Positions 1,402 to 34,319 of a stretch of 34,319 bases of DNA are shown here, in pieces (the first letter of the stretch is position 1; each line of letters begins with the position of its first letter). Both the position numbers and the translations under genes were made by a program. Under the pieces are notes generated by a model, which saw only the letters and a list, made by a program, of their open reading frames with translations, was not told where the DNA came from and did not search any database. The DNA comes from Chloroflexota bacterium (GTDB taxonomy: Bacteria > Chloroflexota > Dehalococcoidia > Lucifugimonadales > Australimonadaceae), in the NCBI GenBank assembly GCA_028874795.1, contig JAPPHT010000001.1, forward strand, positions 1 to 34,319, written 5' to 3'.

Positions 1402-2283
1402 ATGCCCGCAACCGTCGGATTCGTGGGACTGGGGCGCATGGGGAAGCCCATGGCGCTGAACCTGCTGCGCGCCGGTTTCGCCGTGCTGGTGCTGTCGCGT
1501 TCGCGCCCGCCGGTCGATGCGCTCGTCGAGTCCGGGGCGACCGAGGCCGCGTCGCTCGCGGAGATGGCGAAGGGCGCGGACATCGTCTGTACGTGCCTTC
1601 CTGACGTGCCGACGTCGGAGGCCGTATTCCTCGGCCCGGACGGGCTCGCCGCACACGCGCGGACAGGGCAGGTGCTCATCGAGCACAGCACGATAGCGCC
1701 GTCGCTGGCGGTGCGCGTGGGTGAGGTCGCGGCGGCTCATGGCGCGGGCTACCTGGACGCCCCGGTCTCGGGTGGCGTGGAGCGGGCTCAGAGCGGCACG
1801 CTCACGATCATGGCGGGCGGCGAAGGGCGGCACTTCGACGCGGCGCGGCCAGTGCTCGAGGCGATGGGCGCGAGCCTCAACCTCGTCGGGCCAGTGGGGC
1901 AGGGCAGCGTGGTGAAACTGACGAATCAGCTGCTCGTGGGCATCCACACCATGGCGGCGTGCGAGGCGTTCCTGTTCGGCACGTCGGCGGGCGCGGACGG
2001 CAGGCAGCTGCTGGACGTGCTGTCCACATCGTGGGGCGCGAGCGGGATGTTGACGCGCAACGGACCGATGCTGCTCTCCGGCAACTACGGCTCCCTGGCC
2101 CCGGTGCGCCTGCTCGCCAAGGACCTTGGCCTCGTGGAGGACGCCGCAGCCGACCTCGGCGTTCCGCTGCCGCTCGTGCAACGCACGCGGGCGCTGTTCG
2201 AGGAGGGGATGGCCCGCGGGCTGAGCGAGAGCGACATATCGGCGCTCATCACGCTGCTGACTTCGCAGAACGAGGCGGGTTAG
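1402..2283 (+). CDS. NAD(P)-dependent beta-hydroxyacid dehydrogenase, 3-hydroxyisobutyrate dehydrogenase-like
   Basis: This is a 293-residue member of the beta-hydroxyacid dehydrogenase family, which oxidises small beta-hydroxy acids with NAD(P)+. The N-terminus carries the dinucleotide motif GFVGLGRMG; the substrate loop DAPVSGG lies near residue 117; the catalytic lysine is about K172 in VKLTNQLL; the C-terminal all-helical domain is complete. Length matches the family (about 290-300). The start at 1402 places the Rossmann motif at residue 5 as usual; an in-frame ATG at 1378 would add 8 residues. Its stop codon overlaps that of the convergent molybdenum hydroxylase gene. With icmF, an acyl-CoA ligase and an aldehyde dehydrogenase elsewhere in the window it would fit isobutyrate or valine breakdown, but it is not adjacent to them and the substrate is unproven (tartronate semialdehyde and succinic semialdehyde reductases look alike). 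Confidence 0.85.
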   Translation: MPATVGFVGLGRMGKPMALNLLRAGFAVLVLSRSRPPVDALVESGATEAASLAEMAKGADIVCTCLPDVPTSEAVFLGPDGLAAHARTGQVLIEHSTIAPSLAVRVGEVAAAHGAGYLDAPVSGGVERAQSGTLTIMAGGEGRHFDAARPVLEAMGASLNLVGPVGQGSVVKLTNQLLVGIHTMAACEAFLFGTSAGADGRQLLDVLSTSWGASGMLTRNGPMLLSGNYGSLAPVRLLAKDLGLVEDAAADLGVPLPLVQRTRALFEEGMARGLSESDISALITLLTSQNEAG

Positions 2284-4502
2284 GGGCTCCGCTTCCTGAT
2301 CGCCGTCAGCACACGCTCGGCAGTCAGGGGCAGTTCCTTCATGCGAACGCCGGTTGCGTCCCGGATGGCGTTGGCGATGGCGGGCGCAACGCCAAGCAGC
2401 GGCACCTCGCCGATGGCCTTGGCGCTGTATGGGGCCGCCCCTGCCGTGGACGTCACGAGCGCCGTCTCCAGTTCCGGGACGTCGGCAACGTTGGGCAGCT
2501 TGAAGTCCGCAAGCGACAGCGTCGTCACCCTGCCGGCGTCGGTCAGCAGTTCCTCCTGCAGGGCGTAGCCGATGCCCATCACAACGGCCCCGTTGATCTG
2601 ACCCTGATGGGCGATGGGGTTGATGACGGTGCCGACGTCGTGGGCGCTGGTGAAGCGGAGCAGGGTGACCCGGCCGGTCTCCTCGTCCACCTCCACCTCC
2701 GCTACCTGCGCCGCGAAGGCTGTGTGCTCCGGCTGGCCGGTGACCTGCGAGTGCCCTCTGCCGCTGATCGGCCCTCCGGCGGCCTTGATCACGCTCGCCC
2801 ACGACACCGACTCGCCAGCGTCGTTCGATATGCGCCCGTCCCGGCTCGTCACCGCGTCGACCGCCCAGCCATTCTGCTCCGCAGCGGCCTGCCGGAGTGC
2901 GTTCAGCGCGGCCTCCGCCGCCTCGTGCACCGCGGGCAGCGCCATGCGCGTGGTGCGGCTCCCCGCGACGCCCGAGTCGAATGGGACGGCGTCGGTGTCC
3001 CACACCTGGACGTCGACGCTGCCGACTTCCACGCCGAGCACCTCCGCGGCGACCTGCGCGAACATCGTGTACGCGCCCGTCCCCGGCTCGAAGATCGGCG
3101 TCCTGACGACGACCGGCTCATCGGCTCTCAGGATGACTTCCGCGTAGGACTCGCCTCCGCCCGCCGGGCGCGCGCACATCGCGATGCCCAAGCCGGTCCC
3201 GGGGCGTTTCGGCCCGCTGTAGCCGCTCCGCTCGACAGCTGCAAGCAGGGTCTCCTCAGCGCGGACCTCGGCGAAGAGCTCGTTCATCGGCGTGCGCTGG
3301 CCCTCGCGCAGCAGGTTCTTCATGCGGAACTCCAGCGGGTCCATCTCGAGCCGTCTCGCCACCTCGTCCAGGTGCGATTCCATCGCGAAGGAGCCCTGCA
3401 CCTCGCCCGGACCGCGCATGTAGCCGCCCGGGAGATTGTTCGTGTAGACGTGGTACTGCTCGAAGCGGGCGTTGGGGATGTGCCAGTTGGCGGCGATGCG
3501 GTCAACGCCGGCGAGCGCGCCCAGCGGCATCAGCCCCGCGTACCCTCCGCTGTCGAAGTACATCTCCTGCAGGTGGGCCGTGATCCGGCCGTCGCTCGTC
3601 ACGCCGGTCCTGACCCGCATGACCGCGGCGTGCTTCGGGTTGCCCGCCCCAAGCTCCTCCACTTGGTCCATGACCATCTTGACCGGACGGCCTGTCCTGA
3701 CGGAAAGCAGGTAGGCCAGCGGCTCATCGAATGGCGCGGTCTTCGAACCGAAATCGCCGCCGACGTGCACGGGATGGACGACGATCGACTCCTCTTCGAC
3801 ACCCACCGCGAGGGCGAGCGCCTGCCGCAGGCCGAATGGTGTCTTGTTGGACGACCACACGTGTGCGCGTCCGTCCTTCTCCACGGAGACGACGCAGGAG
3901 CGCGACTCGAAGAACGCGGGATGCGTCCGGCCGCATCGGTACTCGTCCTCGAAGACGAAGTCGGCCTCAGCGAAACCCGCGTCCACGTCGCCGATGCCGA
4001 ACTCCGCGCTGAAGAAGACGTTCGACGGCTCCGGGGGTGGGCGGCGGAAGCCCTCGTAGGCGTCCATGCCGGGATGGATGACGCGGGCGCCGGGGCGCGC
4101 GGCATCCAGCGCGTCAAGCAGGGGAGTCATCTCCTCGTACTCGACTTCGATCATGCCGACGGCCCGCTGGGCCGTCTCTTCGTCGTCAGCGGCGACGGCG
4201 GCGACCTTCTCTCCCGCAAACCGGACGACGTCCTGCGCGAGCAGTGGGAGGTCGCGCACCTGGCGTCCCTGCAGGCGGCCCGCAACGTCCGCGCCGGTCA
4301 GCACCGCGCGAACACCGGGGACGGCCACTGCACGGGAGACGTCGACTCTCCGGATGCGGGCGGCGGGGTAGGGGCTGCGCAGCGCCTTCGCCCAGAGGGT
4401 GCCAGGCGGACAGACGTCGAAGGCGTAGAGCGCGCTGCCCGTCGTCTTATCGGGCCCCTCGGTCCTGCCGGCCGGATGGCCGATGACCCTGTAGTCTGTC
4501 AT
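2280..4502 (-). CDS. xanthine dehydrogenase/aldehyde oxidase family molybdenum-binding subunit
   Basis: The 740-residue product is a large (molybdopterin) subunit of the xanthine oxidase family, which hydroxylates aldehydes or N-heterocycles. The a/b-hammerhead domain occupies about residues 20-130, followed by the Moco-binding domains. Visible motifs are GGDFGSKTAPFDEP, GPGEVQGSFAMESHLDEVA and, near the C-terminus, AIGEVPLLGVAPAIANAI, which holds the conserved catalytic glutamate after the glycine. The start at 4502 has GAGGGG a few nt upstream and places the family N-terminus correctly; a 45-residue extension is open but lacks similarity. The usual FAD subunit and 2Fe-2S subunit are absent on both sides, so partners must be encoded elsewhere or the enzyme differs from the three-subunit form. 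The substrate is unknown. Confidence 0.88.
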   Translation of the reverse strand: MTDYRVIGHPAGRTEGPDKTTGSALYAFDVCPPGTLWAKALRSPYPAARIRRVDVSRAVAVPGVRAVLTGADVAGRLQGRQVRDLPLLAQDVVRFAGEKVAAVAADDEETAQRAVGMIEVEYEEMTPLLDALDAARPGARVIHPGMDAYEGFRRPPPEPSNVFFSAEFGIGDVDAGFAEADFVFEDEYRCGRTHPAFFESRSCVVSVEKDGRAHVWSSNKTPFGLRQALALAVGVEEESIVVHPVHVGGDFGSKTAPFDEPLAYLLSVRTGRPVKMVMDQVEELGAGNPKHAAVMRVRTGVTSDGRITAHLQEMYFDSGGYAGLMPLGALAGVDRIAANWHIPNARFEQYHVYTNNLPGGYMRGPGEVQGSFAMESHLDEVARRLEMDPLEFRMKNLLREGQRTPMNELFAEVRAEETLLAAVERSGYSGPKRPGTGLGIAMCARPAGGGESYAEVILRADEPVVVRTPIFEPGTGAYTMFAQVAAEVLGVEVGSVDVQVWDTDAVPFDSGVAGSRTTRMALPAVHEAAEAALNALRQAAAEQNGWAVDAVTSRDGRISNDAGESVSWASVIKAAGGPISGRGHSQVTGQPEHTAFAAQVAEVEVDEETGRVTLLRFTSAHDVGTVINPIAHQGQINGAVVMGIGYALQEELLTDAGRVTTLSLADFKLPNVADVPELETALVTSTAGAAPYSAKAIGEVPLLGVAPAIANAIRDATGVRMKELPLTAERVLTAIRKRSP

Positions 4503-14865: not shown

Positions 14866-15282
14866 CTACCAGATGGCCTGCACCTGCGCTGAAGCGGCGA
14901 TGACAGGGTCCCGCGTCACGACCGGCACGCCGAGCGCAAGCGCCTCCGCCGCGATGAGCCGGTCGTGCATCTCCGGGATCTCCGGCAGGCGATCGAGTAG
15001 CTCCAGTTGGGTCCTGCCCAGGTCAGATAGGGTGAGGGAGTTCGACGTGGCGATTACTTCCATCAGATCCGAGGATGGGAGGGGTTGACCGGTCTTGACA
15101 GACAGGTAGAAGACCTCCGCCACCACGATTGCGGGCACGATCAAGACAGCATTGCCGGCGTCCGCCATCGCAAATATGTTGGCTGTGGCCGACGAGAGTC
15201 GTGGAGACGACTTCATGTACCACCACAGGGTATGTGCATCCACTACGAATCGTGGAAGACTACCTCGGTCGGTCTCCGTCAT
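14866..15282 (-). CDS. PIN-domain toxin, VapC-like
   Basis: The 138-residue protein is a PIN-domain ribonuclease. It has the first acidic residue in RFVVDAHTLWWY (about D14), a glutamate in PAIVVAEVFYLS (about E55), and the late acidic cluster in EIPEMHDRLIAAEALALG followed by VPVVTRDPVI. The length is right for VapC. These enzymes cut RNA (tRNA or rRNA in known cases) when freed from their antitoxin. The ATG at 15282 overlaps the antitoxin stop by 4 nt (ATGA), so the toxin is made second and coupled to the antitoxin. Confidence 0.88.
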   Translation of the reverse strand: MTETDRGSLPRFVVDAHTLWWYMKSSPRLSSATANIFAMADAGNAVLIVPAIVVAEVFYLSVKTGQPLPSSDLMEVIATSNSLTLSDLGRTQLELLDRLPEIPEMHDRLIAAEALALGVPVVTRDPVIAASAQVQAIW

Positions 15283-15530
15283 AGATCATCCGGGATACGC
15301 GGTTCCCATATCTTCTTGGCTTCGACGAAGTCTTCCCACTCCAGGTCGGGCAGGCGGCTTCCGAGTTCACGGAGACGCTTCAACGCAGACTCTTGAGCGG
15401 TAGGCTTCATGGGGATGAGCCGACCGCACGGTTTACCCCGGCGTGTGATGATGACCTCTTCGCCGTCTTCGAGGCCGCGCAGTATCTCGCTGACCTTCGC
15501 CTTGAACTCGCGCACGCTGTATGTAGTCAT
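15279..15530 (-). CDS. Phd/YefM-type antitoxin
   Basis: The 83-residue protein starts MTTYSVREFKAKVSEILRGL and continues GEEVIITRRGKPCGRLIP, the standard DNA-binding half of Phd/YefM antitoxins. Its C-terminal tail (WEDFVEAKKIWEPRIPDDL) should wrap the toxin. I chose the ATG at 15530 because GAGGAG is 9 nt upstream and the family begins here; the longer open frame upstream is antisense to icmF. It is co-transcribed with and precedes the PIN toxin. Antitoxins of this type repress their own operon, and an inverted repeat overlies its promoter. Confidence 0.9.
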   Translation of the reverse strand: MTTYSVREFKAKVSEILRGLEDGEEVIITRRGKPCGRLIPMKPTAQESALKRLRELGSRLPDLEWEDFVEAKKIWEPRIPDDL

Positions 15531-22913: not shown

Positions 22914-24815
<1,902 letters not shown>

Positions 24816-24818
24816 GGC

Positions 24819-25832
24819 ATGAGCACGGCGGACGACCGCGAACGCGGGCTCATGGTGGGCATCGCGGCGGGGAACCTGTTGGGCATCGTTGTCGAGGGCC
24901 GCACACAGAGCGAGGTGCGTCGCCGCTTCCCGGACGGCGTGCGCGACATCGCCGCCCGGCCCGGGTACCCGGACGACGACGACCTGGCGCAGTCGATCAT
25001 CATCGCGGAGGCAGTGGAGGAAGGCCCGCTCGACGTGGAAGACCTGGGCCACCGCTTCTGGGAGTGGGGCGAGGTCAACGGGCTGGGCATGGGCACTCTG
25101 ACGAGCAGGGTGCTCACGCTCTTCGGCGGCGACTACCCGCGGGGCTTGCGCTGGGGCACGCTGGACGACGTGCGGCAGCCGAAGGGGATGGCGATCGAGG
25201 ACGCCTCGCGGGAGGCGTGGGGCGGCAAGAGCGCGGGCAACGGGGCGCTGATGCGCTGCGCTCCCATCGCGGTCCGGTGGCGCGACGATGCCGTTGCACT
25301 CGCCCGGAACAGCGTCGTCAGCGCCGTGCCGACGCACTGGGACCGGCGGTGCGGATGGTCGTGCGTGGCGCTGAACATCGGCATCGCGGCCGCGCTGCGA
25401 GGCGAGATGATGGACACTGACGTGCTCATCGCGGCGTCGGAGGAAGCCGTGCGTCCCTCGCTGCCGGAGCTGTCGCAGTTCGGCTACGAGGCGCAGATGC
25501 CGGGCAGCGTACGGAACGCCATAAGGCAGGCCGCTGCGTCCGAGATAGGCGACATCGAATTCGATGGCTCGAACATGGGCTTCACGCTTTTGGCGCTGGA
25601 GGCCGGGCTCATCTCGCTCTGGCGCGCGCCGGACTTCGAACACGGCCTCCGCGCCGTCGTCGAGGCAGGCGGCGACACAGACACGAACGGGGCAATCGCA
25701 GGCGCTGCACTCGGTGCGCGGTTCGGCGTCGACGCCATCCCGCAACGCTGGCGCGACCGCATCGCGGAACTGCGCGAAGGACGCACGCCGATGGAGGAGT
25801 ACGCGGACAAGCTGGCCGCGGCGCGGGGGTAG
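24819..25832 (+). CDS. ADP-ribosylglycohydrolase family protein
   Basis: The 337-residue protein fits the DraG/ARH family, which removes ADP-ribose from proteins or small molecules using a pair of metal ions. Visible are GIAAGNLLGIVVEG at the N-terminus, an acidic metal loop YPDDDDLAQS (about residues 50-58, in place of the usual TDDT), GNGALMRCAPIA near 143, and the late metal motif GGDTDTNGAIAGAALGARFG near 280. The ligands therefore look complete. Only 3 nt separate it from the ligase stop, so it is almost certainly co-expressed with it. The partner that adds ADP-ribose is not in the window. A target cannot be deduced. Confidence 0.88.
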   Translation: MSTADDRERGLMVGIAAGNLLGIVVEGRTQSEVRRRFPDGVRDIAARPGYPDDDDLAQSIIIAEAVEEGPLDVEDLGHRFWEWGEVNGLGMGTLTSRVLTLFGGDYPRGLRWGTLDDVRQPKGMAIEDASREAWGGKSAGNGALMRCAPIAVRWRDDAVALARNSVVSAVPTHWDRRCGWSCVALNIGIAAALRGEMMDTDVLIAASEEAVRPSLPELSQFGYEAQMPGSVRNAIRQAAASEIGDIEFDGSNMGFTLLALEAGLISLWRAPDFEHGLRAVVEAGGDTDTNGAIAGAALGARFGVDAIPQRWRDRIAELREGRTPMEEYADKLAAARG

Positions 25833-27429: not shown

Positions 27430-27465
27430 GCGATAGCGCGGTTGGCCTTGTGCTCTGGCTATCGC
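27430..27465. terminator. hairpin between convergent genes
   Basis: GCGATAGC (27430-27437) is the exact reverse complement of GCTATCGC (27458-27465), with a 20-nt loop. It lies 21 nt past the aldehyde dehydrogenase stop and overlaps the last codon and stop of the leftward small gene. No T-run is visible. It may end transcripts from either side. Confidence 0.35.
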
Positions 27466-27638
27466 CTCTTGGCGCCCTGGAGGGTAAGCAGTAGGAACGC
27501 CAGCAACATCAGGGCTACGGCCAGCACAACCAGCAGGGTCACGACCATTTCAGGCAGGGAATAGACGAGGCCCCAGACGAGCACCCCCATCATCACCACG
27601 CCCACTGCGCCGAGGCTTATCCATACCGATGCGGGCAT
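27459..27638 (-). CDS. small membrane protein, 59 residues
   Basis: The product has two hydrophobic segments (about 4-26 and 30-52) separated by a very short SLPEM turn and ends in a basic tail GAKRR, suggesting a hairpin in the membrane. GAGGAG 7 nt before the ATG at 27638 overlaps the stop of the preceding small gene, so translation is probably coupled. No family was recognised. The frame is open further upstream but that part overlaps the neighbour. Confidence 0.6.
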   Translation of the reverse strand: MPASVWISLGAVGVVMMGVLVWGLVYSLPEMVVTLLVVLAVALMLLAFLLLTLQGAKRR

Positions 27639-27642
27639 CGCT

Positions 27643-27822
27643 CTACTCCTCGCCTTGTTCCCGGGATCTGGAGCGCTCAACGAGTCCTACAGCCGTCAAC
27701 GAGACGAACAGGACAACCAGCACCAGACCAACTCCTACTCGGGCGTCCACGGGGTCGAGTTGCCATGCCCTCGGCAACAGCCAACTCAACGCGGATGCTG
27801 CCAGAATTGTATCTGCCGCCAC
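27643..27822 (-). CDS. small membrane protein, 59 residues, GTG start
   Basis: The likely product is MAADTILAASALSWLLPRAW (first residue from GTG) with two hydrophobic stretches (about 4-17 and 29-48) and a charged tail ERSRSREQGEE. It lies 19 nt after the stop of the substrate-binding-fold gene and 4 nt before the next small gene. The Shine-Dalgarno sequence is weak, so the start is uncertain; the longer frame to 27915 overlaps the neighbour out of frame. No family was recognised. Confidence 0.45.
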   Translation of the reverse strand: MAADTILAASALSWLLPRAWQLDPVDARVGVGLVLVVLFVSLTAVGLVERSRSREQGEE

Positions 27823-27841
27823 GAGAGTGTCGACTCGATCC

Positions 27842-28756
27842 TCACACGAAGAGTTCCTCCAGCGTCCAGCGCCTGCGGATGATCTCCGTCTCGTAGAGGT
27901 AGTCCACGACGGCACTTACGGACGCGCCGTGTACGTCGAGGCCCTGCGCCCTGGGGAAAAGCCCGATGCGCCGCAGGTCGCCCGCGAGCAGGCCCTGGTG
28001 GACGGAGTCGTCCGGCTCCTCGTCCATGTAGATGGGGGTCGCCTCGTCCATCGCCTTGCAGACGGCGTCCGCAAGGCCGGGGTGATCGGCGGCGGACTCT
28101 TCTTTCATCACCAGCAGCGTGTTGATGGGGAAGACGCCCGTCTCCTCGTGGTAGCGCTGCAGGAGCGTGTAGGGATCGTCGATCAGCAGCCGCACGTTCG
28201 ACGCCAGGGCCGCGTTGCCGCCCGCGACCACGAGCGCGTCGAGGTCTCCTGCCGCGAGCCGCCCGTCGAGGTCCGACATCTGCTCGCGGGCGAAACGCTC
28301 CGGCTTGGGGTAGGGCACGCCGCGCAGCGAGTCGTTCTCGCCCTCGACCCACGTGATGCTGTCGGCGGCGACGCCATAGTGGTGCGCGAGGATGCCGCGC
28401 AGCCAGACCGCGGGATTCGAAGCGAAGCCGAGCGGCACGCCGACGCGCTTGCCCGCAAGGTCGCCGATCTCGGCGATCCCCGCGGCGTCGTTGACGGTCA
28501 CGCCGGTGAGCGGGAAGAAGAGGTTGGGGAAGATGGGCAGCGCGACGAGGTCCACACCGTTGTCCTTCGCCACGATGAAGTTGCCGATGGTGAGTTCGCC
28601 GACGTCGTACGGGCGCGTCGTGACCATCGCGGGGAAGATGGGCGCGGGCGCCGGGCCCGCGTCGACGAGTTCCACGTCCGGGTAGTCGACAGAGACGCGC
28701 CCGCTGAGCAGGTGTCGCGTGATGAGGCGGTTCCCGACCGCTACCGATACCGCCAT
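27842..28756 (-). CDS. 4,5-dihydroxyphthalate decarboxylase-like protein (periplasmic-binding fold), second copy
   Basis: The 304-residue protein resembles its operon neighbour at 29386-30354 and the 4,5-dihydroxyphthalate decarboxylase/NMT1 group. Shared features are YDVGELTIGNFIVAKDNG, VALPIFPNLFF, then IGDLAGKRVGVPLGFASNPAVWLRGILAHHYGV (here quoted in pieces: GKRVGVPLG and WLRGILAHHYGV). There is no signal peptide, arguing for a cytoplasmic enzyme or sensor rather than a transport binding protein. Its ATG overlaps the stop of the cupin gene by one base (TAATG). Reaction and substrate are not determinable; a decarboxylation of an aromatic acid would be the family-based guess. Confidence 0.78.
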   Translation of the reverse strand: MAVSVAVGNRLITRHLLSGRVSVDYPDVELVDAGPAPAPIFPAMVTTRPYDVGELTIGNFIVAKDNGVDLVALPIFPNLFFPLTGVTVNDAAGIAEIGDLAGKRVGVPLGFASNPAVWLRGILAHHYGVAADSITWVEGENDSLRGVPYPKPERFAREQMSDLDGRLAAGDLDALVVAGGNAALASNVRLLIDDPYTLLQRYHEETGVFPINTLLVMKEESAADHPGLADAVCKAMDEATPIYMDEEPDDSVHQGLLAGDLRRIGLFPRAQGLDVHGASVSAVVDYLYETEIIRRRWTLEELFV

Positions 28757-29343
28757 TACGGGTCCGGCGTCATGGCGGAGGAGAAGATGGCGCTGCGCCC
28801 GCTCTCAACGTCGTAGCGGTGGCGCTGCACCTTGTCCAGGTCCATGCTCGTGATGCGGCAGTAGATCGTCTCGTCGCTGGGCGAGCCCTGCACGCTGTGG
28901 ATCTCGCCGGGCAGGATGTAGTGGACATCGCCCGCTCCCTGCTCCATGACCTCCACGACCTCGAACGCCGGCATCTCGGCGTCGGCGCTGTCGTGGCGGT
29001 AGGCGTAGCGCGTCTGGGTGTTGCCGCCGCTCTTGACGCCGTAGGCGACCCAGCAGACGCCGTGGTCGTGCGGGGCGGGGCGCTTGAGCTCCTGGGGGCC
29101 CTGGCGGTAGGCCAGTACGACGAACCCGGGCCCCGGGTGACCGTACTCGGCGTCCCGGTAGATCTCGTAAGTGCCGTTGCCGTCGCCGAACTTCTCGCTG
29201 TTCTCCGGCCAACCGTTGTCGAACGCGCGGCGCATGAGCTTGGCGATGTTGTGCGCCTGCTGCACGGAGTCGCGATGGGTGGCAAAGACCTCGCGGAGGT
29301 CGGCGATGAACTGCTGCTCGGTGTAGACCGCGGTCTGTGTCAT
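28756..29343 (-). CDS. cysteine-dioxygenase-like cupin
   Basis: The 195-residue protein has the layout of cysteine dioxygenase-type thiol dioxygenases: a helical N-terminus, then PAPHDHGVCWVAYGVKSG with the HxH metal pair (about residues 91-93), and a third histidine in LPGEIHSVQGS (about 146). Such proteins bind one iron with three histidines and add O2 to a thiol or related substrate. GAGGAG precedes the ATG at 29343. It sits between two dihydroxyphthalate-decarboxylase-like genes, which suggests an oxidation step in the same pathway. The actual substrate is unknown. Confidence 0.75.
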   Translation of the reverse strand: MTQTAVYTEQQFIADLREVFATHRDSVQQAHNIAKLMRRAFDNGWPENSEKFGDGNGTYEIYRDAEYGHPGPGFVVLAYRQGPQELKRPAPHDHGVCWVAYGVKSGGNTQTRYAYRHDSADAEMPAFEVVEVMEQGAGDVHYILPGEIHSVQGSPSDETIYCRITSMDLDKVQRHRYDVESGRSAIFSSAMTPDP

Positions 29344-29385
29344 GTCGGTTCTCCTCTCTGGGCTGCTGTCCCTGGCGTGGTAGTT

Positions 29386-30354
29386 TTACGTCTCCAGTGT
29401 CGTCTCGAAGAAGAGGTCCTCCACGGCGAGCGGGCCGGGGATGAGGCCCTGCTCGACCTCGTAGCGGATGAAGCGTTCGAGGTTGGCGCGGTTCGCCGCG
29501 ACGCCGGTTGGCCACGGGTCGGGCCCGAGCACGCGGCGCTCCTCCTCAAGGTAGTGGCGGCCCCACGTGAGCCTGCTCCAGTTGGGGTCGTCCATGTAGT
29601 GCGTCCACTGCCGCTTCGCCTGCTCGAAGCCGTCCAGCAGGCTCACCGGCGCCCACGGGTGCTCTTCGGCTACCTCCGACTTCATCGCCACCACGTGCAT
29701 GATGGGATAGAAGCCGTTGCGCTTGAAGTAGCTCACCTCCTCGGCGCGCGGGTCGTCGAAGAGCCGGCCGACCTCCGGCGCGCCGTCCAGGTACGGCTGC
29801 GGCGGGCGCGGCGACAGGAACGCCGACACCTCGCCCTCGACGAGCGCGTCGCCGAGCCTGCGCCCCCGGTCCATGCGCTCGAGCGTCACGCCGGGCGGCG
29901 GGTCGAACTCGACCGGCTCGTCGGCGGTCGTTACCCACGTCACACCGTCGAGGGGCACGCCGTACTCGCTGCCGAGGTCGCCCTTCGCGAGCACGGAGAG
30001 CGTCGTCTGGAACGAGCGCAGCGCGACGCGCTTGCCGATGAGGTCTTTCGGCCCGCCGATGCCGGACTGCGTATTCACGTACATCTGCGATTGGCTGAAG
30101 AGCCGCCGTGGGAAGACGGGGATGGCCGTGAGCGCGGCGCCGCGCGCCTTCGCCATGACATACGAGCCGAGCGACAACTCGCAGACGTCGAACTCGCGAT
30201 GCAGCAGCATGCGCTCGTGGCGTCTGCCGCCCGCGCCGTCCTGACCGACAATCAGCACGGTGGGCTCGATGCCCTTCGGGTGCACCGTTCCCTCCACCCA
30301 CGGCACGTGCCGGTCGTAGTGCTCGAGTGCGATGCTCAGCGGAACGTCGGCCAT
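29386..30354 (-). CDS. 4,5-dihydroxyphthalate decarboxylase-like protein, first copy
   Basis: The 322-residue protein has the hallmarks of the 4,5-dihydroxyphthalate decarboxylase group: an opening LSIALEHYDRHVPWVEGTV, REFDVCELSLGSYVMAKARG, TAIPVFPRRLF, YVNTQSGIGGPKDLIGKRV and a C-terminus with NLERFIRYEVEQGLI. It has no signal peptide. Its ATG follows the TAG of the preceding gene with no gap, with GAGGAG inside the end of that gene, so the two are coupled. Enzymes of this group remove a carboxyl group from dihydroxyphthalate in known cases; whether this one does is unproven. Confidence 0.82.
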   Translation of the reverse strand: MADVPLSIALEHYDRHVPWVEGTVHPKGIEPTVLIVGQDGAGGRRHERMLLHREFDVCELSLGSYVMAKARGAALTAIPVFPRRLFSQSQMYVNTQSGIGGPKDLIGKRVALRSFQTTLSVLAKGDLGSEYGVPLDGVTWVTTADEPVEFDPPPGVTLERMDRGRRLGDALVEGEVSAFLSPRPPQPYLDGAPEVGRLFDDPRAEEVSYFKRNGFYPIMHVVAMKSEVAEEHPWAPVSLLDGFEQAKRQWTHYMDDPNWSRLTWGRHYLEEERRVLGPDPWPTGVAANRANLERFIRYEVEQGLIPGPLAVEDLFFETTLET

Positions 30355-31416
30355 CTAAATCTCCTCTCCGTAGTCGCGTGCCATCTCGCGGATACTCTCT
30401 TCCTGCAGCAGGATCGAGCGGCCGTTCTCCCAGAAGAGGTGACCGTCCAGCTCGATCGTCTGGTCGGAGACGTAGGCGGAGAGCGGCGACGGCGTCCTGC
30501 CGATGTGGAAGTGCATGACGTCCTGGTTGCTCTGCTGCCCGGGGCGCTTCGTCGCCTTGGGATGGAACCCGCCGTGGAACGAGTCGAGCGCATACGCGGA
30601 TTCGGTCCCGTAGCGCTCCTCGCTCACGTCCAGCAGGTGCTGGAGCTGCGCGCTCGTCCAGACGGTGTTCCCGGTGGGGTCGTCCTTCTGTCCGGGCCTC
30701 GACGGCTCCTCGCGCCATTCGATGCCCCTGAGCGTGTTGTCGCTTATCTCCAGCAGCATCGGGTTGTGGAACTGCTCGCGGTCGGCCATGCCGGGATGGT
30801 CGAAGGCTACGACGCCGCTCCCGTCCGCGCTGCCGATGGGGGCGTACACCTCGCCGGGGAAGACGCGCTCGGTGCGGCTCATCTCCGCGTCCTGCACGAA
30901 GAAGGCGTCCGCGACCTCGCTCGCGTGTGCCACGCGTCCCGTGACCTCGGTGCCTCGCGGACTCGTGACGCGGTAGGTCGAAGCCTGTCCCGTGCGCTCT
31001 TCGATGCGGTGCGCGAGCGCCATCACGAGGCGCCAGTCGAAAAGGGCGTGCGGCGTGGTCATGGCTTCCGGGGCGCGGATGCGGTTGTTGATGCGCACGA
31101 GCCCCGCCGAGCCGTTCGCGCGCAGGTGATCCAGCAGCACGGCACGGTTCAGGTTGCAGTTCATCAGCAGCTTGTCGGCGCCCAGCACCGCTCCCGCGAC
31201 GGGGGCCGGAAGCTCCTCAGCGCGTGCCAGCGAGTCCACCCAGAGCGAGTAGGGGACGCCTCCCGCATCGGCGATGGCCTGTTCGATCAGCGCGGCGAGC
31301 TCCGTGTCGAAGGCGCCGCGCTCGTTCAACAGCAGCACGGCCTCGCCCGGTTCGACGGCGGCACAGTGCCTGATGAGATTGGTCACACCCGCCTGAACGG
31401 CTGCGGCATCGGCCAT
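30355..31416 (-). CDS. M29 aminopeptidase / NicX-like metalloprotein
   Basis: The 353-residue protein is built like the aminopeptidase T fold that also includes the 2,5-dihydroxypyridine dioxygenase NicX. The region FPGEVYAPIGSADGSGVVAF corresponds to the conserved core; the metal region is ALDSFHGGFHPKA (about residues 276-287) and VMHFHIGRTPSP (about 303-313). In characterised members as I recall them the last motif is H-x-D; here it is H-F-H, so a histidine seems to replace the carboxylate ligand. The start at 31416 follows AGGAGGAG. It lies 17 nt after the amidohydrolase stop in the same operon. Peptidase, ring-cleaving oxygenase, or another metal-dependent activity are all possible. Confidence 0.7.
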   Translation of the reverse strand: MADAAAVQAGVTNLIRHCAAVEPGEAVLLLNERGAFDTELAALIEQAIADAGGVPYSLWVDSLARAEELPAPVAGAVLGADKLLMNCNLNRAVLLDHLRANGSAGLVRINNRIRAPEAMTTPHALFDWRLVMALAHRIEERTGQASTYRVTSPRGTEVTGRVAHASEVADAFFVQDAEMSRTERVFPGEVYAPIGSADGSGVVAFDHPGMADREQFHNPMLLEISDNTLRGIEWREEPSRPGQKDDPTGNTVWTSAQLQHLLDVSEERYGTESAYALDSFHGGFHPKATKRPGQQSNQDVMHFHIGRTPSPLSAYVSDQTIELDGHLFWENGRSILLQEESIREMARDYGEEI

Positions 31417-31433
31417 CGCACTCCTCCTCGCGT

Positions 31434-32525
31434 CTAGTTCAGCCCGTAGAAGCGCTCTGCGTTGCCGTGCAGGATGGCTGCCTTGTCCGCGTCGGTCAGC
31501 GCCGGGTTCTCGCGGATCTCGGCGATCTCCTCCTTGCACGTCTCATGGTTGACCTCGTGCGGGAAGTCGGACGAGAAGATGAACGCCTTGTTGCCGGCCA
31601 CCTTCACCGCGAAGGGGAGCGTCAGCTCGCCGCCCTCCACGCCGACGTAGACGCGGCCCTCGTCCACGTGCTTCAGAATGTAGTCCGTCACGGACTCGCC
31701 GTCCTTCAGCTGCATGAAGCGCTGGTTCGGGTCGTACTGGATGTGGCTGTCCCACGAGCGCTGGAAACGCTCCAGGCAGCCCACGAACCAGGCGCATCCC
31801 GCCTCCAGGAAGCCGAACTTCGCGTTGGGGTAGCGCTCCAGCACGCCGTTGAAGACGATACCGGCGAAGTTGACCATCTGACCGAACGGGTGGCCGAGCG
31901 CGTTGACCGGCGCGTAGGGGCTCATGTCGTCCAGCCCCATGTGGTCGTGCACGCCTCCGTGGATGCCGATGGCGCAGCCGAGGCGGTCGGCCTCTTCGTA
32001 GATCGGCCAGTACTTCGAGTCGCCCAGGTGGTTCTGGAGCTGGAGCGCGCCGGTGCCGGGAAGCATAGCGCCGGAGAAGCCGAGCTCCTTCACGATGCGC
32101 CGCAGTTCGACGACGGCCTCCGCGGGTTCCTGCAGTGGGACGAGGCCCATCGCCTGGAAGCGCGAGTCCTTGCTGACGTACTCGTCGTAGACCCAGTTGT
32201 TGTAGGCACGCGCGAGCTCGATGGCCCAGTCGCGGCTGACCACGCGCCCGAAGGCGAGGCCGTTGGACGTGTAGAGCACCGTCTTGTCGACGCCAACGTC
32301 GTCCAGGAAGTCGATCCATCCCTCGCGGCCGACGCGGGCGAACGCGCCCTCCGGCAGGAAGTGCCGGTTCGCCGCATGGAGGTGGTCGTTGGGTGGGAAG
32401 GGCCCTCGGGTCGTCACGAAACTGCGGTCCTGGTAGTCCTCGGGCATCCGCGCCCAGATGGCCGCGTGGTCCTCGACGAGGTGGCCGTCGCCGTCAACGA
32501 TGCGTTCCAGGTTTTCAGTGACCAT
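31434..32525 (-). CDS. amidohydrolase family 2 protein, copy B
   Basis: The 363-residue enzyme has a TIM-barrel amidohydrolase pattern: metal motif DGDGHLVED at residue 11 (D-x-H rather than H-x-H), GCAIGIHGGVHDH near residue 180, FGFLEAGCAWF near 240, and IFSSDFPHEVNHE near 320 with the catalytic aspartate. Family relatives include aminocarboxymuconate-semialdehyde decarboxylase and gamma-resorcylate decarboxylase, so either hydrolysis or non-oxidative decarboxylation is possible. It is a clear paralogue of the next upstream gene (36 nt away), with most motifs identical. AAGGAG precedes the ATG at 32525. Confidence 0.88.
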   Translation of the reverse strand: MVTENLERIVDGDGHLVEDHAAIWARMPEDYQDRSFVTTRGPFPPNDHLHAANRHFLPEGAFARVGREGWIDFLDDVGVDKTVLYTSNGLAFGRVVSRDWAIELARAYNNWVYDEYVSKDSRFQAMGLVPLQEPAEAVVELRRIVKELGFSGAMLPGTGALQLQNHLGDSKYWPIYEEADRLGCAIGIHGGVHDHMGLDDMSPYAPVNALGHPFGQMVNFAGIVFNGVLERYPNAKFGFLEAGCAWFVGCLERFQRSWDSHIQYDPNQRFMQLKDGESVTDYILKHVDEGRVYVGVEGGELTLPFAVKVAGNKAFIFSSDFPHEVNHETCKEEIAEIRENPALTDADKAAILHGNAERFYGLN

Positions 32526-32561
32526 GGCTCTGCTCTCCTTGGGTTCGTCGTGGCTCCCCGG

Positions 32562-33662
32562 CTAGTTCGCGGCCAGCCGGTAGAATCGGGCCGCGTTGCG
32601 GAACATCACCGCTTCCTTGTCGTCCGCGGACATGTCCGCGTTCTCCCGCAGCTCGTCCAGCTCCGCCTTGCACGTGTTGGCGTCGACCTCGTGCGGGTAG
32701 TCGGACGAGAAGATGTACGGCTTGTTGCCGGTGAGGCGCACGGCCTCCGGCAGCGCAAGCTCGTCGCCCTCGACGCCGACGAAGATGCGGTCCTCGTCGA
32801 TGTGGCGGCAGATGTAGTCGGAGACGCGCTCGCCCTCGCGTATCTGCAGGAAGCGGCCTCGCGGGTCGTACTGGACGTGGGACGCCCAGGAGCCGTTGAA
32901 GCGCTCCATGCAGGTGAGCAGCCACGCCGCTCCCGCCTCCAGGAAGCCGATGCGGACACCGGGGTACTTGTCGAACACGCCGTTGAAGATGATGCCGGCG
33001 AAGGCGACCATCTGCCCCATCGGGTGGCCGAGCGCGTTGATGGGCGCGTAGGGGCTCATGTCGTCCATCAGGAAGCCCTCGTGCGCGCCTCCGTGGATGC
33101 CGAGAGCGCATCCGAGCCGTTCCGCCTCCGCGTAGACGGGCCAGAACTTGCTGTCGCCCAAGTGGGGCTGCTGCGCGCCCGTGGACGGCAGCATCGCGCC
33201 GACGAAGCCGAGCTCCTGCACGATGCGACGCAGCTCCTCGACCGCCGCGCCGGGCTCCTGCAAGGGCAGCAGGCCCATCGCCTGGAAACGGTCGCCGCGC
33301 TTCAGGTAGTTGTCGTAGACCCAGTTGTTGTACGCCTGCGCGAGCACAACGGCCCAGTCGCGGCTGACGATCTTCCCGAAGCCGAGGCCGCTGGTCGTGT
33401 AAAGCACCGTCGAGTCGACGCCGACCTCGTCCAGGAATTCCATCCAGCCGTCAGGCCCCACGTCCGCGAACGCGCCGGGAGGTGTGATGTGGCGGTTGGC
33501 GGAGTGGAGGTGGTCGATGGGCGGGAAGGGGTTCCGTTGCGACCGCGCCTCGCCGAAGCTCTTGCCTTTGTACTCGTCCGGCATGTACGAAACGATGCCG
33601 GCGATGTCCTCCATGATGTGGCCGTCGCCGTCGATGATGCGTTCCAGGTTTGCCGTCGCCAT
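32562..33662 (-). CDS. amidohydrolase family 2 protein, copy A (first gene of the cluster)
   Basis: The 366-residue paralogue has IDGDGHIMED at residue 10, GCALGIHGGAHEG near 183, IGFLEAGAAWLL near 243 and IFSSDYPHEVDAN near 323, so metal ligands and the late aspartate are conserved as in copy B. AGGAGG stands 5 nt before the ATG at 33662. It opens the leftward cluster, so the promoter should lie in 33663-33740. Differences from copy B are spread over the protein, including surface loops; two substrates or a heteromeric enzyme are both conceivable. Confidence 0.88.
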   Translation of the reverse strand: MATANLERIIDGDGHIMEDIAGIVSYMPDEYKGKSFGEARSQRNPFPPIDHLHSANRHITPPGAFADVGPDGWMEFLDEVGVDSTVLYTTSGLGFGKIVSRDWAVVLAQAYNNWVYDNYLKRGDRFQAMGLLPLQEPGAAVEELRRIVQELGFVGAMLPSTGAQQPHLGDSKFWPVYAEAERLGCALGIHGGAHEGFLMDDMSPYAPINALGHPMGQMVAFAGIIFNGVFDKYPGVRIGFLEAGAAWLLTCMERFNGSWASHVQYDPRGRFLQIREGERVSDYICRHIDEDRIFVGVEGDELALPEAVRLTGNKPYIFSSDYPHEVDANTCKAELDELRENADMSADDKEAVMFRNAARFYRLAAN

Positions 33663-34150: not shown

Positions 34151-34319
34151 ATGGTTACGAGAACCGCCGACCTGGCCGATTGGCAGGAACCGGAAGGCAT
34201 GAACAAGGCCGGTTTCGGCTTCTGGAAGACGCCGAAGTCCGCCTACGACCTCTTCATCGAGTCCCAGGGCATCGACATCCACCGCGACATCGGCGTCCAC
34301 CGCATCCAGGACCTGCCGC
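34151..34319 (+). CDS. cupin-type protein, N-terminal part (runs off the right edge)
   Basis: The first 56 residues are visible. GFWKTPKSAYDLFIESQGI followed by DIHRDIGVHRIQDLP resembles QFYDRWMEAQGIPIYRDYYI in the N-terminus of the bicupin protein at 181-1305, so this should be a paralogue of it. GGAGGGAG precedes the ATG by 5 nt, and CATAAT at 34099-34104 is a possible -10. It is divergent from the catabolic cluster, with about 490 bp between, and may share regulation with it. Confidence 0.7.
   Translation, partial: MVTRTADLADWQEPEGMNKAGFGFWKTPKSAYDLFIESQGIDIHRDIGVHRIQDLP

Follow-up and report, generated by a model that had tools for sequence, protein, structure and literature searches.

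The closest described systems for the locus reported here are the oxygenases AibH1H2, SfbO, PtmU3 and LynB7 (PMC7782822, PMC10401708, PMC10811679, PMC10127204), the decarboxylase Pht5/OphC (PDB 9jp7), the ring-cleaving NicX (PMC7910607) with the M29 aminopeptidases, and the 3-mercaptopropionate, mercaptosuccinate and cysteine dioxygenases. The window analyzed was the whole of a 34,319-nucleotide (nt) stretch, contig C35 of the 3.33-Mb genome of a marine SAR202 bacterium whose closest named relatives are SAR202/Dehalococcoidia metagenome-assembled genomes (MAGs), and near its right end a minus-strand run of six genes (33662 to 27842) was compared with these systems. SAR202 bacteria are thought to oxidize degradation-resistant organic matter, and few of their pathways are known. 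The six genes are proposed to form a catabolic module, conserved in one SAR202 family, for the oxygenation and decarboxylation of a di- or polycarboxylic acid with a hydroxylated aromatic or heteroaromatic ring; judged on sequence, this proposal was given an even chance. The module appears to bring known enzyme families together in a new way, its pathway being undescribed. For SAR202 the cassette offers a defined, testable set of enzymes, and it points to an unannotated family of metal proteins with the NicX fold and an SxH...HxH pattern.

Reading from the first gene, AH1, to the last, DHPD_B, the intergenic gaps were 36, 17, 0, 42 and -1 nt. Purine-rich ribosome-binding sites were present at 5/6 starts, and all six frames were open, with conserved counterparts (56-88% identity) in a genome of 42% G+C.

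Enzyme families and active sites

AH1 (32562..33662, minus strand, 366 amino acids) and its paralog AH2 (31434..32525, minus strand) have the amidohydrolase (AH) fold, were both assigned to PF04909 by Pfam and are 64-65% identical. Their best solved matches were 8sm6-8sm9, PtmU3 and AibH1H2, the top PDB match of AH2 being AibH2 of the AibH1H2 monooxygenase, and the decarboxylase ACMSD scored close behind. The 8sm6-8sm9, PtmU3 and AibH1H2 group consists of dinuclear oxygenases (PMC10811679, PMC7782822, PMC10401708); taking the PtmU3 and 8SM entries for type III thioesterases proved wrong, since the papers describe oxygenases. The metal ligands of AibH2 are D25, H27, H211, E265, D337 and H340, and at these positions AH1 carries D13, H15, H190, E242, D321 and H324 (6/6 kept). 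AH2 has the same six, and so does every intact ortholog examined from the clusters; the PF04909 fold is shared with the AibH1H2, SfbO, PtmU3 and LynB7 proteins. ACMSD has His at the position of AH1 E242. In mononuclear PF04909 decarboxylases (ACMSD, gamma-RSD, LigW) the strand-8 pattern is not known to include a His after the Asp. Compared with the pattern of these enzymes (strand-6 His, AHGGG), AH1 has E242 in place of the His, and D321-x-P-H324. A mononuclear decarboxylase reading of the pair was rejected because the active-site residues are wrong; the description of the two proteins in the initial annotation as amidohydrolases related to decarboxylases was correct for the Pfam family but not for the subgroup, the ligand set being of the AibH2 type.

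The two genes are adjacent paralogs, as in aibH1H2, but AibH1 and AibH2 are 28% identical. In a tree, the AH1/AH2 duplication predated the split of two genera, and another genus had duplicated its own AH gene independently. That AH1/AH2 act as an oxygenase is plausible, and the cassette suggests that many SAR202 PF04909 'amidohydrolases' may be oxygenases, not hydrolases.

DHPD_A (29386..30354, minus strand, 322 amino acids) belongs to the 4,5-dihydroxyphthalate decarboxylase (DHPD) family, with a full-length match to the solved enzyme 9jp7 (E 1.6e-54), and the diverged DHPD_B (27842..28756, minus strand, 304 amino acids, overlapping the preceding gene, CUP, by 1 nt) matched 9jp7 by profile (E 1.3e-35). 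Both matches agree with the earlier call of two dihydroxyphthalate-decarboxylase-like proteins. The pair was aligned with relatives from Rieske/reductase/Gfo-Idh operons of Acidovorax, Massilia and Sulfitobacter; the motif PIMH was present in DHPD_A and 9jp7, and PINT in DHPD_B. DHPD relatives were found in phthalate-type Rieske operons of several lineages. By N-terminal hydropathy, a signal-like N-terminus was absent from both proteins, which disfavors a role as transporter binding proteins. The two are thus alike to Pht5/OphC in full-length homology, in having no signal-like N-terminus and in having relatives in aromatic-acid operons, but there are two diverged copies here, PIMH is lost in DHPD_B, and no Rieske oxygenase is nearby. 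Decarboxylation would be the best-founded step of the module.

Most genomes of the family carried 7 to 15 DHPD-family genes (maximum 15, e.g. G000), and further copies were paired in tandem next to genes for Rieske, Gfo/Idh, LigB and class II aldolase proteins. Among 294 genomes sampled from the class, with at most seven candidates per genome scored, only 19 had DHPD genes at E 1e-10. No report of DHPD paralog expansion in SAR202 was found among the papers searched, and up to 15 relatives per genome would add another paralog expansion to those of SAR202.

The third gene (30355..31416, minus strand) encodes a NicX/M29-fold protein of 353 amino acids (M29 in gene orders below) from an unnamed family. 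Searches of Pfam, NCBIfam and, by direct sequence comparison, the PDB gave no match for it, and the M29 family model of Pfam matched neither this protein nor ten relatives. Its AlphaFold2 model (pLDDT 86) was structurally closest to NicX (7cup; Foldseek E 2.3e-14; VIA-align Z 22.8, root-mean-square deviation 3.9 over 296 residues), followed by M29 aminopeptidases (Z 15-17). Twelve family members share the invariant SxH...HxH pattern (H283 in SxH, H304 and H306 in HxH; P0003 numbering). Relatives in other Chloroflexota have ornithine-cyclodeaminase-like (OCD), Rieske, UbiD, DHPD and DapA-type genes nearby, and two from Rhodobacteraceae lie near Rieske genes on plasmids.

CUP (28756..29343, minus strand, 195 amino acids) is a cupin of the thiol-dioxygenase family (cysteine and 3-mercaptopropionate dioxygenases, CDO/3MDO). 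A profile including distant relatives matched 3-mercaptopropionate dioxygenase at E 3.4e-22, as well as cysteine dioxygenases, and of the metal-site His residues H92 and H94 were invariant and H149 nearly so. Fold family and three His are thus shared with the described thiol dioxygenases. The structure model of CUP was poor (pLDDT 46) and was not used. Some distant CUP relatives adjoin a rhodanese-type protein (L069:91-2264, with four rhodanese domains; L066:2838-5042), which fits sulfur metabolism and suggests that they are true thiol dioxygenases in other Chloroflexota; the CUP of the cluster has no such neighbor.

Conservation of the cluster

The arrangement is not peculiar to one genome, the neighborhood search having recovered the six genes in order in L017/L060 (G475), L018, L019/L071 (G539), L020 (G520), L021 (G234, OSU_TB62, 42% G+C) and L065 (G407), with a partial cluster copy in L022. 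Two genomes with this order belong to a second genus of the same SAR202/Dehalococcoidia family, and the G+C of the two genera is 67% vs 42%. Between the second genus and the window, AH1 and AH2 are 86-88% identical and the other four proteins 56-72%; across the clusters of both genera, AH1 orthologs are 86-98% identical. An in-frame stop was seen inside AH2 of one MAG (L017:8896-9987) and a frameshift in AH1 of another (L019:7757-8857), which may be sequencing errors or decay.

The family sample comprised 16 genomes, 10 of them of high quality. The NicX-fold gene was present in 13/16 (10/10 high-quality; single copy in most), a strong DHPD_A ortholog in 12/16 (10/10 high-quality), close AH homologs in 14/16 and a strong cupin ortholog, counted by match strength, in 12/16. 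Every one of the high-quality genomes held AH homologs, the gene for the NicX-fold protein and both genes of the decarboxylase family, and most also held the cupin. In genera beyond the first two the block is broken, and the AH genes are solitary, some near Rieske or molybdenum-hydroxylase genes; a third genus keeps OCD-M29-DHPD_A-CUP (L134) and a fourth M29-CUP (L137). Since it stays together where the block is broken, the M29-(DHPD_A)-CUP core outlives general synteny.

Proposed pathway and competing explanations

Gene order, conservation, folds and ligand residues are the observed layer, and the steps that follow are drawn from family and active-site evidence. First, the AH1/AH2 pair would carry out an AibH2/SfbO-like, O2-dependent hydroxylation, possibly assisted by a molybdenum hydroxylase from a nearby gene. 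Second, DHPD_A would take off a ring carboxylate beside a hydroxyl, and DHPD_B would act on a second carboxylated intermediate or be a diverged partner. Third, oxidation or ring opening would fall to the metalloprotein with the NicX fold, to the cupins (CUP and a neighboring two-cupin protein, with LigB in some genomes) or to both, and fourth, neighboring OCD-like and Gfo/Idh dehydrogenases and a CoA ligase would reduce and clear the products. Our best guess at the substrates is hydroxylated aromatic or heteroaromatic carboxylic acids in marine organic matter. The initial annotation had likened the cluster to an aromatic or heteroaromatic acid pathway, which is favored in part by the family match of DHPD_A, by DHPD relatives in phthalate-type Rieske operons, by NicX-fold relatives near Rieske, UbiD, DHPD and OCD genes, and by a molybdenum hydroxylase near the NicX-fold gene elsewhere; a nic-type pyridine pathway was not supported, its NicC, NicD, NicE and NicF partners not being recognized.

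Several observations weigh against the proposed module. An acidic residue stands two positions after the last ligand His in AibH2 (D342) and PtmU3 (E313) (PMC7782822), but AH1 and AH2 lack it, with V326 there instead, flanked by E325 on one side and by D327 (AH1) or N (AH2) on the other. A scan for Rieske ferredoxin motifs in the window and the cluster loci (~20-40 kb round the cluster) found none, although it did detect Rieske oxygenases in other loci, and neither a Rieske ferredoxin nor a reductase adjoins the pair as in AibH1H2-type systems. Because the acidic residue and the ferredoxin are missing, AH1/AH2 are said to work like AibH2 and were not filed as members of its group. The iron ligands of NicX are H265, S302, H318 and D320 (PMC7910607); the window protein has S, H, P and S there (4/4 replaced), whereas three NicX relatives retain H, S, H and D. 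A NicX iron site in the M29-like protein was ruled out by two profile alignments and the family alignment, so that its first description as an M29/NicX-like metalloprotein stands for the fold and falls for the iron site. Thiol dioxygenases carry an outer Ser-His-Tyr triad. The triad is absent from CUP, which has R163 in place of the His and T165 in place of the Tyr, and the cluster has no thiol-related neighbors; 'thiol-dioxygenase-like' is therefore apt for the family relationship but not for the triad. General synteny, which extends past the cluster, makes up part of the conservation of the entire block between the two genera, and elsewhere, in other genera, single AH genes are dispersed.

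Among the other explanations, a phthalate-type route would consist of a Gfo/Idh dihydrodiol dehydrogenase, DHPD_A and extradiol cleavage by LigB, with the other genes feeding side substrates. Gfo/Idh and DHPD genes do share one neighborhood in orthologous loci, with LigB in some, and 35-39% identical relatives of the Gfo/Idh protein adjoin DHPD in phthalate-like operons; this route is nonetheless considered unlikely, as no Rieske oxygenase was found near the cluster by motif scan, the second genus does not keep LigB next to the cluster, and AH1/AH2, the NicX-fold protein and CUP would be left unexplained. It is likewise doubtful that, in an undescribed pathway, AH1 and AH2 join as a heteromeric monooxygenase (Mn/Fe or Fe2) and the NicX-fold protein cleaves rings as a new oxygenase with an all-His metal site, both acting on marine carboxyl-rich aromatics.

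Somewhat poorer prospects were assigned to a pyridine-carboxylate pathway of the nicotinate (nic) or picolinate (pic) type, made up of a molybdenum hydroxylase, an amidohydrolase-fold decarboxylase (PicC in picolinate-type pathways) and NicX-type ring cleavage. The cluster and its surroundings likewise combine these three kinds of protein. In fold, the M29-like protein comes closest to NicX; cyclic-imine reductases belong to the OCD family; and in other genera genes for molybdenum hydroxylases are found nearby. What is missing, however, are key residues and partner genes, with all four NicX iron ligands replaced by the family's own SxH...HxH pattern and AH1/AH2 lacking the mononuclear decarboxylase residues. 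In a typical nic operon used for comparison, real NicX genes were accompanied by NicC, NicD, NicE and NicF-type genes, none of which was recognized in the cluster neighborhoods read out.

Equally improbable is a mixed block, in which general synteny holds genes of different pathways together. Synteny between the two genera does run beyond the cluster, the parts are dispersed in other genera and the family has many AH and DHPD paralogs, but the M29-DHPD_A-CUP core stays joined while the rest moves, the gaps are only -1 to 42 nt, and the parts co-occur in high-quality genomes. An uptake-and-hydrolysis unit, with DHPD_A/DHPD_B as substrate-binding proteins and AH1/AH2 as plain hydrolases, is very improbable, since the automatic annotation of DHPD relatives as ATP-binding cassette (ABC) binding proteins and the weak NMT1 and SsuA matches are set against the missing signal-like N-terminus, the absence of a permease and an ATPase from the cluster, and the full-length match of DHPD_A to a solved decarboxylase.

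Neighboring genes and related loci

Divergent from the proposed module, and cut by the contig end, is the start of a gene for a two-cupin protein (34151..34319, plus strand; Cupin_2; ~400 amino acids in orthologs), which is 91-95% identical to orthologs beside the same cluster. Past it, orthologous loci carry OCD and Gfo/Idh genes, joined in most loci by a VOC gene and, in one genus only, by LigB and a mandelate-racemase-type gene. An acetate--CoA-ligase-type enzyme (22914..24815, plus strand) converges on the cluster and lies beside it in both genera; end-product activation is a possible role. The large subunit of a molybdenum hydroxylase (Pfam) is encoded at 2280..4502 on the minus strand. 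Genes 57-58% identical to it, likely orthologs, were found within ~6 kb of the NicX-fold gene in G657 and G658, from another genus, and the enzyme is a possible partner in ring hydroxylation.

The initial annotation had counted eight leftward genes with gaps of -1 to 42 nt. Six are real and conserved, but two small membrane open reading frames (27459..27638 and about 27643..27819, both minus strand) did not prove to be members of the cluster. Both frames are open, and tblastn found no relative of either in any fetched locus. In L017, L018 and L021 the next gene starts 0-3 nt past DHPD_B, leaving them no room, and in L019 the interval holds 133 nt of unrelated sequence. They therefore fall probably outside the conserved unit, and they may not be genes at all.

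Two-cupin relatives (56% identical) were also found on rhizobial megaplasmids of Phyllobacterium and Sinorhizobium (L145:6984-35025, L146:1145-33133), together with several DHPD genes, amidohydrolases, a Rieske system, an RraA-family protein and tripartite transporters. This set is likely a cross-phylum aromatic-acid cluster. Its amidohydrolases differ from AH1/AH2 in active-site pattern, and CUP had no good plasmid match in the search for the set outside Chloroflexota. EutA-type genes (ethanolamine ammonia-lyase reactivase; L113:3560-5083, L114:4500-6023) lie beside two-cupin and DHPD_B-like genes in SAR202, and the pairing recurs on the rhizobial megaplasmids.

Elsewhere in the window, a gene at 24819-25832, between the CoA ligase and an aldehyde dehydrogenase, resembles an ADP-ribosylglycohydrolase by eye; it is kept in close relatives but, in the second genus, does not adjoin the cluster. 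Two small adjacent genes at 14866-15530 resemble, also by eye, a PIN toxin and a Phd-type antitoxin.

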